Shown piece by piece: positions 8,770 to 52,116 of a DNA stretch of 64,000 nt. The DNA is taken from assembly GCA_028285585.1 (NCBI GenBank), contig JANQOU010000006.1, forward strand, positions 496,001 through 560,000, in the 5' to 3' direction. The first letter of the stretch is position 1. Each line of letters starts with the position of its first letter. This DNA is from Acidimicrobiia bacterium (GTDB lineage Bacteria > Actinomycetota > Acidimicrobiia > Spongiisociales > ZC4RG35). Position numbers and translations under genes: made by a program. The notes under the pieces were generated by a model. The model was given only the letters and a program-made list of their open reading frames with translations. It ran no database searches and was not told the origin of the DNA.

Positions 8770-10710
8770 ATGGACCTCCCACACGAACTGAACGAGCGCT
8801 ACGTCGCCGCTGCCCACCTCGCCAGAGGTGGGATGGCCGACGTCTATCAAGGCACAGACACGCTGCTCAACCGCAGTGTTGCCATCAAGATCCTGCACTC
8901 GCAGTACTCCTCTGATGAGGCATTCGTCAAGAGGTTCCGCCGGGAAGCACAGGCCGCCGCCAACCTGAGCCATCCCAACATCGTTGGCATCTTCGATTGG
9001 GGCCAGGCCGAAGGCACCTACTTCATCGTCATGGAGCTGGTCGACGGACGGTCGCTTCGCGACGTGCTCAGGTCGGAGGGGGCGTTGCTGCCACGCCGGG
9101 CCACCGAGATCGCCGCCGAGACCGCCGCTGCTCTCAGCGTCGCCCATCAGGGCGGGGTCATCCACCGCGACGTGAAGCCGGGCAACATACTTCTCGCCAA
9201 AGACGGCACGGTGAAGGTGACCGACTTCGGCATAGCTCGCGCCTGGGACGACAGCCAGGAGCTGACTCGGACCGGAGCCGTGATCGGGACCGCCACCTAC
9301 TTCAGCCCGGAGCAGGCACAGGGTGCCGCGGCCGACGCAAGGAGCGACGTCTACTCACTGGGAGTGGTGCTCTACGAGATCCTCACGGGACGGCCGCCGT
9401 TCACCGGCGACAGCCCGATGTCGGTGGCCTTCCAGCATGTCTCGGCGGAGGCTCCGGCACCATCGTCGCTTAATCCCGACGTGCCCGCGTCCTTGGACGC
9501 GGTAGTGATGAAAGCTCTGCGGAAAGATCCGGCCGGGCGGTATCAGAGTGCCGAAGAGATGCGTCAGGACTTGCTGGCGGTGTTGAAAGGCGACCCAGTT
9601 GTTGTCCCCCCCTTGGGTGCGGTAGCTCCAGCAGCAGGGAGCCACGAAGCGACCCAGGTCATGTCGCAGATGCCACCCGCCACCGTCCCGCCCGACGAGG
9701 TCTACAGACAGATCGAAGAGGAGCCAACGAGCCAATTGCCGTTCATGTTCACCGCGTTTGGCTTGCTGGCGGCACTCGCCATCCTCCTGTTTTTCTTGTT
9801 CGACCTGGCCGGCGGCGACGAGCCCGACTCGGAGTTGGTCGACATTCCCCAACTGTCAGGTGTGCTGTTCCAGGACGCCGAGCGCGCATTGCAAGCCCAA
9901 GGCTTCGAACTCACCACCATCTTCGAGTCGAGCGATGAGTTCGACCCGAGGACGGTGATCCGAACCAACCCGGCCGGCGGCACCCAAGCCGAGCGCGGAA
10001 GCGTGGTCCAGATATTCGTCTCCTCGGGGGCTGAAGAGATCGCGGTGCCTCCTGTGGTGGGCCAGGACATCGACGATGCGCGGGCCGAGATCGAAGCTGC
10101 GGGTCTGACCGTCGGCAGCGTCGAGACCAGGCCAGACGCCGACTTCGACATCAACGTCGTCATCGAGCAGAACCCCGGCCCGGGAGTTGAGGTGGGTCTC
10201 GGCGCTCCGGTCAACTTGATTGTCTCCACCGGTCCCGAAGTGATTGACCTGCCCGACATGTCAGGCAAGACGGAACGTCAAGCAACCACGGAACTGGCAA
10301 CACTCGGCCTTCTGTTCGCCGTGGAAGAAGAGTTCAGCACCGACGTCCCGAACGGTGAGGTGATCAGGACCGACCCCGAGGCAGGGAGTCAGGTGCTCTC
10401 CGGCGACACCATCCTCCTCGTGGTTTCGAAGGGCCCGGAGCCGGTGGAAGTGCCGCCTTTGATCGGCCTAACCGAAGCCGAAGCCCGTGCCGAGGTCGAA
10501 GCGGTCGGCCTCGTGCTCAACGTGGCCGCTTCAACCCAGCCGGTGGCCGACCCGGCTCAGGACGGATTGGTAGTGGATCAAATCCCGACGGACGGCCAAA
10601 CCGCACTGCCCGGTGACGTTGTCACGGTGACCTTGGGCAAGTTCACACCCCCCTCGACGACGACATCCACCACGTCGACCACCTCAACTACCTCAACCAC
10701 CATCCCCTGA
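8770..10710 (+). CDS. pknB: PASTA-domain Ser/Thr protein kinase PknB
   Basis: A transmembrane sensor kinase for growth and peptidoglycan synthesis. The kinase domain (about 8-275) shows VAIKIL, HRDVKPGNILL and DFGIAR. One membrane helix lies at about 324-343, followed by four PASTA repeats, each starting with a pattern like VPPVVG or LPDMSG, which in this family bind muropeptides or lipid II. The tail is a Ser/Thr-only low-complexity stretch built from ACC/TCG-type codons. The usual companion kinase PknA is missing from this cluster, so this may be its only kinase. The stop codon lies at the left boundary of an inverted-repeat element. Confidence 0.95.
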   Translation: MDLPHELNERYVAAAHLARGGMADVYQGTDTLLNRSVAIKILHSQYSSDEAFVKRFRREAQAAANLSHPNIVGIFDWGQAEGTYFIVMELVDGRSLRDVLRSEGALLPRRATEIAAETAAALSVAHQGGVIHRDVKPGNILLAKDGTVKVTDFGIARAWDDSQELTRTGAVIGTATYFSPEQAQGAAADARSDVYSLGVVLYEILTGRPPFTGDSPMSVAFQHVSAEAPAPSSLNPDVPASLDAVVMKALRKDPAGRYQSAEEMRQDLLAVLKGDPVVVPPLGAVAPAAGSHEATQVMSQMPPATVPPDEVYRQIEEEPTSQLPFMFTAFGLLAALAILLFFLFDLAGGDEPDSELVDIPQLSGVLFQDAERALQAQGFELTTIFESSDEFDPRTVIRTNPAGGTQAERGSVVQIFVSSGAEEIAVPPVVGQDIDDARAEIEAAGLTVGSVETRPDADFDINVVIEQNPGPGVEVGLGAPVNLIVSTGPEVIDLPDMSGKTERQATTELATLGLLFAVEEEFSTDVPNGEVIRTDPEAGSQVLSGDTILLVVSKGPEPVEVPPLIGLTEAEARAEVEAVGLVLNVAASTQPVADPAQDGLVVDQIPTDGQTALPGDVVTVTLGKFTPPSTTTSTTSTTSTTSTTIP

Positions 10711-10862
10711 CCCCCCTTCCAGCAACCTCAGGTAATACGGCCCAGATACGGGCTCTATAGCCTCAGCTTGAGAGACGCTCTCACGCGCCACATTCAAACT
10801 GGAGGCCATAGTGCCCAGATACGGTCGCTATTACCTGAGGTTCGCGGTAGCGGGGGTTGAGG
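10708..10862. repeat. Long inverted-repeat element, copy 1 (between pknB and crgA)
   Basis: The whole gap between two convergent genes is an imperfect palindrome. The outer arms carry AACCTCAGGTAATA and TATTACCTGAGGTT, then CAGATACGG blocks, then ATAGCCTC and GAGGCCAT near a non-palindromic centre. The ends read TGACCCCCCTTCC and GCGGGGGTTGA. A second copy with the same blocks lies at 51976-52116, again between convergent genes. It could act as a bidirectional terminator or be a small mobile/REP-like element. Confidence 0.85.
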
Positions 10863-11102
10863 TCAGCGGTAGTTGGTGGTCATGAGGAAGCCACCGGCGA
10901 TCGCGACAAGGCCGGCGAGCAGAACCCACTGATCCCAGTCCATGATGAACCTGAGCAGGACCAGGATGACACCGAGCCCCATCAGGCCGGCCATCAGTGC
11001 CACATACCAGGTGGGACTGGGGTCTTTGGCCTTGGCTGCTGCGGCTACCGCTGCTTTAGATTGAGGGCGGTTCTTTGGTTTGCGGCGTTTCGACTCGGGC
11101 AT
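10863..11102 (-). CDS. crgA: Cell division protein CrgA
   Basis: A small actinobacterial membrane protein that recruits division proteins to the septum. The 79 residues begin MPESKRRKPKNR, followed by the conserved PSPTWYVALMAGLMGLGVIL and two transmembrane helices, ending GGFLMTTNYR. I placed the start at the ATG giving MPESK, the usual CrgA beginning; the open frame extends 21 codons upstream. It lies convergently to pknB, a common place for crgA near this kinase cluster. Confidence 0.9.
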   Translation of the reverse strand: MPESKRRKPKNRPQSKAAVAAAAKAKDPSPTWYVALMAGLMGLGVILVLLRFIMDWDQWVLLAGLVAIAGGFLMTTNYR

Positions 11103-11204
11103 CCGTCGGCGAGAGTAGTCGGTTCGTTTCGCCCGATTTTGCCTTACCAGACTGAGTTTTCCCACAAACTGTGGACAAACTCTTGGAAAACTACACGCGT
11201 GTGA

Positions 11205-12137
11205 TTAGTCCTCGAAGGTGACCGGGGACAGCCTGGTTCGATCGACTTTGACGTCGATGACGTCGCCCCGGAAGTAGTGCCCGGCAGGGTCGAAGTTTTG
11301 CCGCTCCCCGCGAACCCTCTCGACGTCGATATCGGCCATCACCAGCTTCTCCTCGCTGTCGACCGGCTCGACCAACCACTTCCCGTCGGGCCCGGCTATC
11401 GCCGACCCGCCGTTGTAGAGAACTCCATCATCGTCACCGAGGGAGGCGTCCCGAGCCGGGAACTCGCCGGGGATCGAGTCGGCCCGGAGCAGCGAGCCGG
11501 CAGAGAGGACGTAACAACGACCCTCCATGGCGATGAACCGTGTGATGTGCTTGGTCAAGCCCACCGCACCTGGCCAGGAAGCAACATGAAGCTGTGTCCC
11601 TTGCGCATACATGGTGTGCCTGATCGTGGGCACCCAGTTCTCCCAGCAGTTGAGGCCCGAGACCTTGAAGTCGCCGACCTCATGCACCCGCAGACCGTGG
11701 CCGTCACCTATGCCCCAAGCCATCCGCTCGTCATAGGTGGGCATCATCTTCCGATGTGAGCTGAGGATCCCCCGGTCGGGGTCGATGGCCACATAGCTCG
11801 CGTAGACGGTCCCGCCGCTGTCACTGCGCTCGGTGATCCCCAAATAGGTGAACACACCGTGGTCGCGGACCGCTTCCACCACCTCGTTCATCTCGGGACC
11901 GTCGATCGCGACAGCCGAGCCCAGGTAGAAGGCGTAGGCCTCTTTCTGATCCGGCGCGTTCCATCTCGCCGCGTCGGTCCGCGCCATCCAGTAGGGGTAG
12001 CCAGACATGAAAGTCTCCCCGAAGGCGAGCAACTCGACACCCTCGTTTGCGGCACGACCGATCCAGTCGGTGACGATCTTCTTGGTCGAGTCGGGATCAC
12101 CCCAGGCGGGTGCTGTCTGTGCGGCGGCGATTCTCAC
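11205..12137 (-). CDS. Nitrilase-family carbon-nitrogen hydrolase
   Basis: The family hydrolyses nitriles (or amides) to carboxylic acids with a Glu-Lys-Cys triad. Here E41 (FGETF), K130 (HRKMMPT) and C164 (LNCWENWVP) are visible. The Cys-Trp-Glu context is that of true nitrilases rather than amidases. The 310-aa length is normal and the start is GTG. The substrate cannot be told. The next gene downstream in genome order is crgA, without obvious functional link. The upstream neighbour is a small zinc-ribbon protein. Confidence 0.9.
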   Translation of the reverse strand: MRIAAAQTAPAWGDPDSTKKIVTDWIGRAANEGVELLAFGETFMSGYPYWMARTDAARWNAPDQKEAYAFYLGSAVAIDGPEMNEVVEAVRDHGVFTYLGITERSDSGGTVYASYVAIDPDRGILSSHRKMMPTYDERMAWGIGDGHGLRVHEVGDFKVSGLNCWENWVPTIRHTMYAQGTQLHVASWPGAVGLTKHITRFIAMEGRCYVLSAGSLLRADSIPGEFPARDASLGDDDGVLYNGGSAIAGPDGKWLVEPVDSEEKLVMADIDVERVRGERQNFDPAGHYFRGDVIDVKVDRTRLSPVTFED

Positions 12138-25518: not shown

Positions 25519-26037
25519 ATGACCACTACAAGCCACACGCTGAACGACGTCGACCTAAACGCCGTAGGAGCTCTCGTCGAGGCCATCCAGAACGATCCCG
25601 GCAAAGCCGGCACCACCTGGAAGTCGACCGTGGAATGGCACGGAGGATTCCGCTCGGCGTCGCGTAGCCGCGATTTCGCACCGGCCGAATCCGATGAGCC
25701 CGTCGCACTCGGCGGTGAGGACACCGCACCGAACCCCGTCGAACAGCTCCTCGGGGCGCTGGGGAACTGCTTGGCGGTCGGCTACGCGGCCAACGCCACC
25801 GCTGCCGGCATCGAGTTGAAGGATCTGCGGATCGAGTTGGAAGGCGAGCTCGACCTGCACACGTTCCTCGGGCTCACAGACGGCAACGCCGGCTACGAGA
25901 CGATCCGGGCCAACGTTTCCATCGACTCCGACGCAGACTCTGAGACCCTTCAAAACCTGCACGAGAAGGTGATCTCCACCTCACCCGTAGGCCACACCCT
26001 CTCCAGAGCGGTGCCGGTCGAGGTAGCGCTCGCTTAG
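25519..26037 (+). CDS. OsmC-family protein
   Basis: A 172-residue member of the OsmC/Ohr fold. The first family cysteine is present in LGALGNCLAVGYAANATAAG, within the long central helix. At the place of the second (resolving) cysteine the sequence reads ISTSPVGHTL, so the two-cysteine peroxidase site is incomplete. This suggests a non-peroxidase subfamily member. An ATG with AAAGGAC upstream is the start. A strong terminator hairpin follows. Confidence 0.88.
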   Translation: MTTTSHTLNDVDLNAVGALVEAIQNDPGKAGTTWKSTVEWHGGFRSASRSRDFAPAESDEPVALGGEDTAPNPVEQLLGALGNCLAVGYAANATAAGIELKDLRIELEGELDLHTFLGLTDGNAGYETIRANVSIDSDADSETLQNLHEKVISTSPVGHTLSRAVPVEVALA

Positions 26038-26065
26038 AAGAAGCAGGTCTCGAGAGACCTTCCAA

Positions 26066-26114
26066 GCCTCGTGCCGGCCTCCAGCAAACGCTGAATCAGA
26101 GGCCGGCACGAGGC
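26066..26114. terminator. Bidirectional terminator hairpin between osmC-like gene and hisD
   Basis: GCCTCGTGCCGGCCTC pairs perfectly (16 bp) with GAGGCCGGCACGAGGC across a 17-base loop. It sits between the convergent OsmC-like gene and the end of the his operon, so it can stop transcription from both sides. Confidence 0.85.
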
Positions 26115-26142
26115 CTCACCACTCAAGGCGCTGAACAAGCTC

Positions 26143-27390
26143 TCAAGAATCCCGCACATCTACCGCGCGGGCGTGGGCTTCCAACCCTTCCAGGCGGGCG
26201 AACTCGACCACATCACCTGCGATCTGTGACGAATCCTCGATCCGCAGCCACGTCGGCGACTTCAAGAAGGTGAGCGGAGACAGCCCAGACTGAAAGCGGG
26301 CGGTTCCCCCGGTCGGCAGCACGTGGTTCGGGCCGATGCCGTAGTCACCATGAGCCTCAGTTGTCGCGTCGCCGATGAACAGCGACCCGAACGAGTTGAA
26401 CCGCTTTGCCTCCTCCTCGGCGTTGACAATGTGGAGGGAGAGATGCTCCGGTGCAAGCTGGTCACAAGCCTCGGCGGCTTCCTCGATGTCAGACGTCACC
26501 ACGCAAAACGCACTGTCAAGCGACCGACCAGCAGTATCCGCGGTCGGCAGATCTTCGAGCTGGTGTCCAAGTCCCTCATTGACCTGGTCAGGAAGGCTTG
26601 GGTCTGTGGTGACCAACCCGACACGTGCGTCGGGATCGTGCTCCGCCTGAGCCAGCAAATCGGCCGCGATCAACGTCGGATCCGCGGAGTGGTCGGCGAC
26701 AACAACGACTTCCGAAGGCCCAGCAAGACCGTCGATGCCGATCTCCCCATACAGGTGCTTCTTGGCCGCGGTGACCCATCGGTTGCCCGGGCCGACAACC
26801 ATGTCACAGGGAGAGCAACCAACCCCGAACGCCAGAGCGGCAATCGCCTGTGCTCCTCCGATCACCAACAGTTGGTCAGCCCCAGCGACATGGGCCGCGG
26901 CCAAGGTTGTCGGGTGGGGACGGGGGGAGGCCACGATGATCCTGTCGACACCCGCCACCCGGGCCGGGATCACGGTCATCAGCACCGAAGACGGCAGAGG
27001 GTGCCGCCCACCAGGTGCATAGGCACCAACTGTGCGCACTGGGACCAGCCGGTGTCCGGCCCAACCGCCATCGACCTGCATCTCCATCGTGGAGAGAGAG
27101 CTCTTCTGCATCTCCGCGAAAGCCCGGATTCGCTCTGCCGCCCGGCTCAGCACCTTTTGTGTCTCCGCGGACAGAGACTCGAAAGCTGTCGCCATCTCAT
27201 CCCGGCCTATGACAAAGGACTGGCCAGGAGACAAATCGCCGAATTGCTCGCCATACCTCCGCAGAGCCTTCTCGCCTCGCTGTCGGACGTCTTCGACGAT
27301 GGCGGCCGCTTCGGCGAGGGCGGATGAGTCGACCGGTGCTCGGCGCACCAGCGACATCTCATCCCAAGACATTGGCGTCAGATAGCTCAC
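26143..27390 (-). CDS. hisD: Histidinol dehydrogenase
   Basis: This enzyme catalyses the last two steps of histidine synthesis (histidinol to histidine, NAD-dependent). Recognisable stretches are VGPGNRWVTAAKKHLYG, GPSEVVVVAD, LLAQAEHDPDARVGLVT, the zinc/catalytic EHLSLHI and GPNHVLPTGGTARF. It is the last gene of the his operon and overlaps the hisA-I-E fusion by 4 bp. The 415-aa length is normal. A strong hairpin follows the gene. Confidence 0.95.
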   Translation of the reverse strand: MSYLTPMSWDEMSLVRRAPVDSSALAEAAAIVEDVRQRGEKALRRYGEQFGDLSPGQSFVIGRDEMATAFESLSAETQKVLSRAAERIRAFAEMQKSSLSTMEMQVDGGWAGHRLVPVRTVGAYAPGGRHPLPSSVLMTVIPARVAGVDRIIVASPRPHPTTLAAAHVAGADQLLVIGGAQAIAALAFGVGCSPCDMVVGPGNRWVTAAKKHLYGEIGIDGLAGPSEVVVVADHSADPTLIAADLLAQAEHDPDARVGLVTTDPSLPDQVNEGLGHQLEDLPTADTAGRSLDSAFCVVTSDIEEAAEACDQLAPEHLSLHIVNAEEEAKRFNSFGSLFIGDATTEAHGDYGIGPNHVLPTGGTARFQSGLSPLTFLKSPTWLRIEDSSQIAGDVVEFARLEGLEAHARAVDVRDS

Positions 27391-43400: not shown

Positions 43401-43820
43401 ATGAACTCCACGATCCGGCGGAATCTGAACGCTTTCGCAGCAGTCCTGTTCGTGGCGATCCTGACGATCGTCGCACTGAACGGGCCCAATCGGCCGCTCG
43501 ACGGTCGCTGGAACCTGACCCTGATCGAGCTGCCCAGTGGGTCATTGACACCGACCCAGCCGTCGTGGATCGAAATCGACGGCAACTACCTGACAGGTGT
43601 GGCGGAATGCATGGGCATGAACGGAACCATCACGGCAGCCGAAAACGGCTTCTCATCGGAGATCGAATTCCAGGAGGTGGGCAACTGTGAGCCCACAGCG
43701 ATCGACTCCGCATACATGGAGGACTTCTGGGCCCTGACCGTTGCGGATCGACGCCCATCCGGCCTGACCCTTCAATCGGAGTGGGCCGAGGTCGAGTTCA
43801 ACTACGAGATGGCGGGCTAG
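43401..43820 (+). CDS. Secreted or membrane-anchored META/HslJ-like protein
   Basis: A 139-residue protein. A short basic N-terminus and one hydrophobic segment (about 10-26) act as signal anchor. The exported part LDGRWNLTLIELPSG...PSWIEIDGNYLTGVAECMGMNGTIT resembles the META/HslJ fold, which has a W near the start and a glycine/Cys-Asn-like turn. I placed the start at ATG MNSTIRRN; the frame is open 8 codons upstream. The family call is moderate and the function unknown. The next gene is convergent. Confidence 0.65.
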   Translation: MNSTIRRNLNAFAAVLFVAILTIVALNGPNRPLDGRWNLTLIELPSGSLTPTQPSWIEIDGNYLTGVAECMGMNGTITAAENGFSSEIEFQEVGNCEPTAIDSAYMEDFWALTVADRRPSGLTLQSEWAEVEFNYEMAG

Positions 43821-43831
43821 TCGAGCCTGGC

Positions 43832-43856
43832 GGGGAGAGCCAAGAGTCGACTCCCC
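43832..43856. terminator. Weak hairpin between convergent genes
   Basis: GGGGAG pairs with CTCCCC across a 13-base loop, in the short gap between the META-like gene and the DUF4349 gene. Stem and loop are modest. Confidence 0.35.
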
Positions 43857-43873
43857 CCAACTCGGCCAGTGAT

Positions 43874-45202
43874 TTAGGAGTCTTCTGCTGTCCTGTTTCG
43901 TGACCGCACGACCAGACGCCACAAGAAGTAGAGACCAGCCGGCACCCAGATGAATGGCAGCAACGCTCCAGCCAGCAACAGCACTATCTGACCCAAGCCG
44001 AGCAGCCATTCCCAGCTGGTTTGCAGACCGTCCACAAACGTGGGAATGCCACCTGGATCGAAAGCCTCCAGAAAGAAGATCGATGTTCGGGTCGCCGGCG
44101 CCCCGTCGATGGCAGTGCCGTCATCGTTGACCGGCTGAGCGGTGATCGTGCTTTGAATGCGCAGGTCACGGTCGACCAAAACCTCAGTTGCCAGCATCAG
44201 CGAAGCGCCCGGCTCCAGCGGCTCGTCGAGATCCCCGTAGACGAGGGTCATGTCGCCGATCTCCAGGTCGAGCACCGGATCACGCAGCTCGAAGTCGCGA
44301 AGCAGCGTGTCGCCGATGTTGGTGACCTCGTAGCAAAGAGTCGCTCGGTCCCCGACCTCAATGTGGAGCGCTTCATACTCACCGGGGCAGCCTGCACCAC
44401 TGTCGCCAACAGAAGACAGGGCGGTGACCACCAGATCGATCTCGGGATTGCTGGCGTCCCTGGTGATGGTCATCACGATCGTGGCAAGCGCCACTTGGTC
44501 TTCCAGGGTGCGCAGCCGGCCACGGAGCGACTCGAGTTGTGTCTCACGAGCGACTAGCTCTGCCTCGAGGGCCACAACTTCTTTGATGTCGGTGGCCTCC
44601 GCGAGAAGGGCTCGCAGCCGCTCGACGCTGGCTGCCGAAGTCGCGATCTGACTGCGTAGATCAACCACACGATCGGTGACATCGGTTGCGGTCACCTTCT
44701 GGGTTCGCACCTCACCGATCGAGCTCAAGTCATTGAGAACCTCGTGAAAGCGGTCGGGATCCACCTTGAACGTGAGGATGCTGACCGACTCGAGGCCGCC
44801 GGTTGTCTCCTGGCCGAAGAGGAACCCACCGGCAAGGGCCACCACTCGCCCCGCTTCTGCACTGGCAGCGCCGACGTCGGGCACTGCGACTCTGATGTCC
44901 GCAGTGAAGATGATGTCTCTACCCGGAGGCGATGCCTGGAAGGCGACAGGTGTGGTCGCGCCATCGCCAAACACTGTCTTGTCCTCATCAGCGGTATCGG
45001 TATCGGTGGCGGCTCCCTCAACCTCGCCGCTCTCTCCCGAATCTCTGGATGTCGCGGCTGTTGTCACCGCAGGTGCACCATCACCCCCTCCGTCCAGACT
45101 CGAGCTGATGTCCATGAAGGTCTCCATCGAGTCGCTGGCCGCGCAGGCAGCCAGGACCATCACAAACACCAACAAGACGCTGACAAATCTTCCCCTATTC
45201 AC
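43874..45202 (-). CDS. DUF4349-domain lipoprotein
   Basis: A 442-residue envelope protein. The signal sequence ends in a lipobox (VLAAC), so it is probably lipid-anchored. A low-complexity linker is followed by a DUF4349 domain (about 95-265) with IIFTADIRVAVPDVG, the KVTATDVTDRVVDLRSQI repeat and a coiled-coil stretch AELVARETQLESLRGRLRTLEDQV. A beta-rich domain (about 275-380) follows, then a C-terminal membrane helix (about 405-430). The function of DUF4349 is unknown. It is divergent from the large BNR protein across a perfect inverted repeat. Confidence 0.88.
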   Translation of the reverse strand: MNRGRFVSVLLVFVMVLAACAASDSMETFMDISSSLDGGGDGAPAVTTAATSRDSGESGEVEGAATDTDTADEDKTVFGDGATTPVAFQASPPGRDIIFTADIRVAVPDVGAASAEAGRVVALAGGFLFGQETTGGLESVSILTFKVDPDRFHEVLNDLSSIGEVRTQKVTATDVTDRVVDLRSQIATSAASVERLRALLAEATDIKEVVALEAELVARETQLESLRGRLRTLEDQVALATIVMTITRDASNPEIDLVVTALSSVGDSGAGCPGEYEALHIEVGDRATLCYEVTNIGDTLLRDFELRDPVLDLEIGDMTLVYGDLDEPLEPGASLMLATEVLVDRDLRIQSTITAQPVNDDGTAIDGAPATRTSIFFLEAFDPGGIPTFVDGLQTSWEWLLGLGQIVLLLAGALLPFIWVPAGLYFLWRLVVRSRNRTAEDS

Positions 45203-51349: not shown

Positions 51350-51978
51350 GAGTTGGGGTTCTCGTAACAGGGGACATCGCAGTTCGGGCGGCACACTCCC
51401 TCGCGGCCGACCCATTGGTGGACGAGGTCGTCGTCATCGGGCCGGCCAGAAGCAAGTCATTTGCCGTAGTCGACTCGGCCGATGAATGCGACCTGCTGAT
51501 AGGCAACGGATCCGATGCACCCAAGCGGGCACGCAAGCTCGGAGTGCCGCTGGTCTGGGATGGGGAAGAGGCAGAGGAAGGTGTTCATGTCTGGGGGGCC
51601 AGCCCGCAAGGCCTGACTCTGGCTCTCGCCGCTCGCGAGTCGGATCCGAGGCTCGTCGCGGTGGCACATCCCGACCTGGATTCGGGCTCAGACCACCAAG
51701 CGCGCTTTCCCGACCCAATCGGCCGGCTCGATGTGACTGACGGTGTGTATGCCGGTCAAAGGCTTGCTTCAGCCTCATCTCCAGACGCGTTCGCCGCCGC
51801 GTTGGCGGTTGGCGCCGACAGACGGGTGACCCTGGTTGACCACGGAGCGTTCATGTCGGGTGTGGCCCTAGCCGCAGGTGTCGCCGTAGCCGGCGAGTCA
51901 CCCGCTCCGGTGTGGGACGACGCCCTCACTTATCTCAAAGCTGCCACCGCCATGGGCCTAGTCATGGCCGAAGACTGA
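51346..51978 (+). CDS. Unknown Rossmann-like protein of the selenoprotein operon
   Basis: A 210-residue protein. The N-terminus MRVGVLVTGDIAVRAAHSLAADPLVDEVVVIG looks like a dinucleotide-binding beta-alpha-beta unit. Further on are CDLLIGNGSDAPKRARKLGVPLVWDG and a C-terminal helical region with VDHGAFMSGVALAAGVAVAG. I recognise no family. It is coupled to the preceding small membrane protein by GTGA. Its stop codon lies at the left edge of the second inverted-repeat element. Confidence 0.7.
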   Translation: MRVGVLVTGDIAVRAAHSLAADPLVDEVVVIGPARSKSFAVVDSADECDLLIGNGSDAPKRARKLGVPLVWDGEEAEEGVHVWGASPQGLTLALAARESDPRLVAVAHPDLDSGSDHQARFPDPIGRLDVTDGVYAGQRLASASSPDAFAAALAVGADRRVTLVDHGAFMSGVALAAGVAVAGESPAPVWDDALTYLKAATAMGLVMAED

Positions 51979-52116
51979 CCCCCCTTCCACGAACCTCAGG
52001 TAATAACGACCGTATCTGGTCGCAATGGCCTCAAGTTGGCGATGGGCTTCTCGAACTCGAGGCCATAGAACCCGTATCTGGTCGTTATTACCTGAGGTTG
52101 CAGGTTGGGGGGGTTA
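51976..52116. repeat. Long inverted-repeat element, copy 2
   Basis: Built like the element at 10708-10862. The ends are TGACCCCCCTTCC and GGGGGGGTTAA. The arms are AACCTCAGGTAATAACGACC and its complement, with CCGTATCTGG blocks and ATGGCCTC/GAGGCCAT near the centre. It fills the gap between the convergent unknown gene and the DUF3566 gene and includes both stop codons. Confidence 0.85.

Follow-up and report, generated by a model that had tools for sequence, protein, structure and literature searches.

Probable REPIN-like mobile hairpins behind stop codons in an Acidimicrobiia genome and its relatives

A 64,000-nt stretch of an Acidimicrobiia genome (assembly GCA_028285585.1, contig JANQOU010000006.1, positions 496,001 to 560,000; hereafter the window) carries two copies of a palindromic element. 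The first, copy 1, is about 146 bp long (10711-10856) and lies between crgA and the stop codon that ends a PASTA-domain Ser/Thr kinase gene. The family to which these copies belong is probably a non-autonomous, mobile one of hairpins resembling REPINs, i.e. doublets of repetitive extragenic palindromic (REP) sequences. Its copies are dispersed and adjoin stop codons, their pairing is kept by compensatory changes, and within one genus homologous sites are found both with and without an element. A REP-like family that covaries strongly, adjoins stop codons and has filled and empty sites, in genomes without a detectable REP-associated tyrosine transposase (RAYT), offers one system for two questions: what moves hairpins that have no RAYT, and whether placement at gene ends reflects targeting, selection or function.

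In the source genome (2.59 Mb) the 14-mer of the element's outer arm occurs exactly 43 times (20 + 23), and its reversed control not once. Allowing up to two mismatches, the window alone holds four matches against 0.01 expected. A covariance model built from 14 full copies, searched on both strands with E up to 10, returned 78 rows that resolve into 38 places at E < 0.8. The set judged comprises 36 copies, 21 full-length and 15 single-unit, truncated or composite. Two other copies are cut by contig ends, places with E > 0.8 are excluded, and a composite copy near L013, seen by eye, is not counted; three weak places and both contig-end copies were included in the run on gap types.

The basic unit is a palindrome of about 46 nt, CG-AACC...GGTT-CG. 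Full elements consist of two such units, inverted relative to each other, with a short spacer between them that varies in sequence but hardly in length; their ends are C-rich/G-rich. Among 14 exact copies the length is 108 nt in eight and 99, 99, 107, 110, 118 and 119 nt in the rest, and in all 14 the whole-element fold is stabler than two separate hairpins. Inside the outer arms lie two blocks (CCAGATACGG) and a pair of inner arms. Both blocks are on the same strand in 13 of the 14 elements, with one tie, so an element has an orientation. The earlier note's suggestion that inner blocks are reversed in some arms therefore does not hold: the 'flipped' blocks (CAGATACGG) form a direct repeat nested within an inverted one, and between copies it is the orientation of the whole element that differs. 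For 11 copies of 107-108 nt, pairwise identity averages 0.98 and 1.00 in the outer arms, 0.87 and 0.85 in the blocks, 0.79 and 0.86 in the inner arms and 0.40 in the spacer; nine of the 11 had been picked because both ends matched the 14-mer exactly, which makes their identical outer arms an effect of how they were chosen.

Two copies, L015 and L032, have about 146 bp in common with two differences, beyond which similarity stops abruptly and the surroundings are unrelated. At L032 both neighbouring genes end on stop codons within the common stretch; at L015 these codons serve neither neighbour. A near-identical insert of about 58 nt, made of three small hairpins, sits at the same spot of the outer arm in seven elements (L001, L012, L013 near 2241, L014, L109, L117 and L037 near 3950) whose spacers are unrelated, and may be a further hairpin repeat nested within this one. 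Two contigs start inside an element (L113, G000:C13:29-70, and L114, G000:C14:14-55, G000 being the source genome), where the repeat probably breaks the assembly.

The family extends to relatives. Among 34 genomes of the bacterial family, the source genome included, model R1 finds matches in 11 at E 0.01. Model R2, for which 25 single units from eight genomes were aligned (27 were folded, L118 and L127 being left out), finds them in 12 at E 0.001 and leaves 22 without a match. At E 1e-4 it is positive in 20 of 138 genomes of the order, nine of them strong scorers from the source's own family and 11 lower-scoring ones spread over four other families, whose matches are taken as scored. The 34 family genomes are drafts of 59 to 98% completeness, and presence is patchy within genera g11, g4 and g18. 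With 36 copies at home and 12 positive family genomes, the chance duplication that the earlier note kept in view, of two copies without counterparts in relatives, does not describe the family. Viral contigs, phages and plasmids gave no match with one query each.

The pairing of the units is kept by compensatory changes. Lineages have their own sequences on the same fold (AACCTCCGG..., AACCCAGGG..., AACCTGAGG..., AACCCGGGG...). In alignment A3, 89.3% of cells pair against 80.1 in shuffles, 13 of 22 pairs have changed on both sides, and the 52 covarying cells compare with 21.5 in shuffles, none of 500 being as high; the signal is lost when the partner is slid. Eight relatives contribute 70 elements, 60 single units and 10 doubles. 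L064 (G032) and L067 (G020), with no R2 match at E 0.01, stand outside these 70. A further fragment in G032, L085 (AACCTCAGGTAATACGGCCCCC), lies behind a codirectional gene and resembles a decayed half-element.

Filled and empty sites, in each case a difference between species, occur in genus g11, where G019 alone of three genomes has the family. At the convergent L062 site the genes of G017 and G018 end back to back (TGATCA, gap 0); in G019 a stretch of 138 nt is flanked directly by TGA and TCA, with a duplication of at most 1 nt. Protein identity of the homologous genes is 80% (G017) and 78% (G018). At a second, codirectional site the distance from TGA to a conserved CTTGCACA motif is 64 nt in G019 versus 6 and 4 nt in G017 and G018. 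In genus g14, two places with one unit in G025 carry two in G024, and orthologous units of the two genomes are identical at two of four sites compared. One convergent gap holds a tandem duplicate in G024 (L128 2509-2629) and an identical single unit in G025 (L137 2509-2558).

Placement follows gene ends. A protein gene's stop codon lies within 25 nt of 24 of the 36 own copies and of 16 of the 21 full copies, against 14% of intergenic positions that close to a gene 3' end (p about 2e-10 for the full copies; placement p-values come from a simple purpose-made gene caller and treat copies as independent, and the convergent test for all copies was run as 15/39). The other 12 copies are more than 25 nt from any such stop codon, and two of these, the full copies L017 and L010, have a tRNA 3' end about 10 and 13 nt away. 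In the relatives a gene 3' end is within 25 nt of 57 of the 70 elements, including 10 sides with the stop codon inside the arm. By gap type the own copies divide into 15 convergent, 15 codirectional and six divergent, and the relatives' elements into 33, 26 and eight, with three at contig edges. Convergent gaps hold 10 of the 21 full copies versus 9.6% of intergenic length. The earlier note's proposal of a non-autonomous element at convergent 3' ends agrees well with the dispersal of the copies, with filled and empty versions of two sites in one genus and with the strong 3'-end bias, but the preference, with 15 of 36 copies in convergent gaps, is for gene 3' ends of any kind.

A run of at least four G is present within 22 nt on 26 of the 31 sides that have a gene 3' end no more than 25 nt away, and on 16 of the 20 intact sides with none near, so the run belongs to the element. 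It touches the stop codon directly on 13 of the 31 gene-end sides. The stop codon as a fixed element end was rejected for the source genome, since non-gene sides keep the G-run and mostly have other triplets next to it. Targeting and selection against other insertions may each account for stop-codon placement.

As mobile hairpins, the elements would arise by insertion of a hairpin or of a hairpin copy, would be kept where they are least harmful, directly behind stop codons, and would be homogenised within a genome through continued copying or gene conversion. Least-harm insertion would put elements behind stop codons even without targeting, the clearest case being the gap of zero length in G017 and G018. 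At gene ends the hairpins would be tolerated and perhaps useful, and they could plausibly also act, secondarily, as hairpins at mRNA 3' ends.

Several findings weigh against mobility. First, a mobilising enzyme was not found among the PF01797 and PF04986 searches. PF01797 (RAYT / IS200-IS605 TnpA), by which the REP-type transposase suggested in the earlier note was sought, is positive in five of 14 control genomes and in none of the 34 draft family genomes, the source included; PF04986 (Y2/IS91 transposase) is absent from the 34 and also from all 14 controls and is therefore uninformative. These were the transposase families searched, with no DDE family among them; one DNA pattern scan of the genome_contigs collection, bearing on related insertion sequences (IS), returned a single contig. 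Contigs C11 and C13, with elements 1.1-1.3 kb apart, were considered as sites of an autonomous carrier and set aside: ordinary-looking genes lie between, and no transposase was recognised by eye in the lists of open reading frames (ORFs; family libraries not searched). Second, three convergent gene pairs are occupied in different genera (A in G000, G013 and G015; B in G000 and G013; C in G015, G023, G024, G025 and G013), for which vertical inheritance under selection is the simpler account. Third, spacers differ even between copies with the near-identical insert, which is odd for simple copy-and-paste. Finally, the absence in G017 and G018 could be loss. Positional conservation as proof of descent is itself weakened: among 10 cross-genus pairs in the same gap, orthologous identity exceeds every non-orthologous comparison in only two, the own-genome mean being 0.88. 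Repeated hits on the same gaps and homogenisation within genomes would each explain this.

The main competitor, less probable in our judgement and still to be taken seriously, is a gene-end structure under selection: a hairpin that protects mRNA or terminates transcription in both directions, inherited vertically and homogenised by gene conversion or a shared binding factor. It would account for the 3'-end position in the own genome and relatives, the G-run directly against the stop codon on those 13 of 31 sides, identical convergent gaps filled in several genera, arms at 0.98-1.0 identity beside a spacer at 0.40, and the compensatory changes. It fits poorly with the 22 of 34 family genomes without a match, with G017 and G018 managing with gap 0 at one homologous gene pair, and with the 12 of 36 own copies that lie farther than 25 nt from the stop codon of any protein gene (two by tRNA 3' ends). 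Intrinsic bidirectional terminators are hairpins common to two converging genes. Here a hairpin is present, and at neither window copy does a T-tract follow it, so neither is a canonical terminator, and the high identity among copies is needless for one. The role of a specialised bidirectional terminator, proposed in the earlier note, may still apply; terminator-like sites with a T-tract were looked for at the two window copies and not found.

A bolder form of mobility, which we regard as doubtful, is a RAYT-independent hairpin that inserts precisely behind stop codons, its site chosen via the end of translation or mRNA 3' ends and not via a DNA target; such a hairpin would re-occupy the same convergent junctions in separate genera, its sequence following each genome's consensus. 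Unlikelier still is an ordinary miniature inverted-repeat transposable element (MITE) of a DDE-type IS, with terminal inverted repeats moved in trans by a transposase. Long inverted-repeat ends, C/G-runs also where no gene ends (16 of 20 intact sides) and a discrete moved unit of about 146 bp would suit a MITE, but the target duplication is at most 1 nt at the one clean filled/empty site, single half-elements are common (60 of the relatives' 70), and the interior is a second palindrome set rather than an IS remnant. Gyrase and IHF sites have been described for enterobacterial bacterial interspersed mosaic elements (BIMEs). Here a family of binding sites for a chromosome or topology protein, set where supercoils from convergent transcription accumulate, is very improbable: strictly conserved arms and CCAGATACGG block beside a drifting spacer and the convergent bias (10 of 21 full copies versus 9.6% of intergenic length) agree with it, but sequences are lineage-specific, most related genomes lack the family, and we know of no factor. 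Integron attC sites, considered for the AAC...GTT ends, were set aside, as copies are scattered and the core-site consensus does not fit.

Mobile hairpins of this general form have precedents. Enterobacterial BIMEs are paired imperfect palindromes at gene 3' ends, alike in placement and pairing and unrelated in sequence to the present family. In Bertels and Rainey 2011 (PMC3116915), REPINs, or REP doublets, are two inverted palindromic repeats with a spacer, able to form one long hairpin or two local ones; they are extragenic, occur as doublets and singlets, are thought to be non-autonomous mobile DNA, and REP-like elements are attributed to RAYT transposases. The present family likewise consists of dispersed extragenic palindromic repeats, as singlets and as inverted doublets with a spacer; unlike REPINs, it has symmetric unit ends, tens rather than hundreds of copies, a host of a different phylum and no RAYT (PF01797) in 34 genomes. 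With REPIN-like anatomy and RAYT at 0 of 34, it is by the defining tests not a RAYT-REP. GTAG/CGTC-tagged REPs, as described in PMC3733652, show 3'-end placement, dimers and some spacers of like length and unlike sequence, and the CGTC families are apparently without a dedicated transposase; the present family is similar in placement, dimers and spacer pattern, and the word 'actinobacteria' is absent from that paper's main text. Neither tag is a family feature here: within 8 nt outside the arm, GTAG occurs in four of 56 relative units and three of 14 own copies, and CGTC in seven of 56 and none of 14. No publication describing this repeat family was found in the open-access literature searched. 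Its elements look like the small mobile hairpins already known from other phyla.

The two window copies show the full plan. As the earlier note had described, copy 1 lies in a 155-bp stretch that forms an imperfect palindrome with C/G-rich ends and an adjoining stop codon, the TGA of the kinase gene (gene 8770-10710, + strand; TGA 10708-10710) directly preceding the element. Its arms of 54 nt are 74% complementary, and its RNA fold of -79.9 kcal/mol (z = -7.37) was equalled by none of 200 shuffles. From the left, on the + strand where a strand applies, follow the outer end of C-run (10711-10716) and connector (CCCCCCTTCCAGC, 10711-10723, no strand), the outer arm AACCTCAGGTAATA (10724-10737), the block CCAGATACGG, a direct repeat (10742-10751), the inner arm TATAGCCTCAGCTT (10756-10769), the variable spacer, longer than in most copies (10770-10796, no strand), the right inner arm AACTGGAGGCCATA (10797-10810) and the right block CCAGATACGG (10815-10824). 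The right outer arm is on the - strand (10829-10842, TATTACCTGAGGTT on +) and pairs perfectly over 14 nt with the left one. Connector and G-run (10843-10856, no strand) close the element, and the crgA stop codon (TCA on +) lies at 10863-10865. Rfam covariance models gave no match at positions 10000-12000 of the window up to E 1.

Copy 2 (51979-52113), 41 kb away, has the same architecture and position type, as the earlier note had seen, and takes up the whole gap between the stop codons of an unassigned ORF and of a DUF3566 gene that adjoins gyrA. Like copy 1 it has inner and outer arms of 14 nt, the outer ones perfect, and the CCAGATACGG block. The C-run directly after a TGA stop codon (51976-51978), with connector, takes up 51979-51991 (no strand), and the left outer arm AACCTCAGGTAATA 51992-52005 (+). 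Both blocks read CCGTATCTGG on +, i.e. lie on the - strand (left 52010-52019, right 52072-52081), the element being in the other orientation. The right outer arm (52086-52099, -) precedes connector and G-run (52100-52113, no strand) and the DUF3566 stop codon (TTA on +, 52114-52116). Two more convergent gaps of the window, 26037-26143 and 43820-43874, hold by eye unrelated GC-rich inverted repeats; other hairpins may thus serve gene ends without the element.
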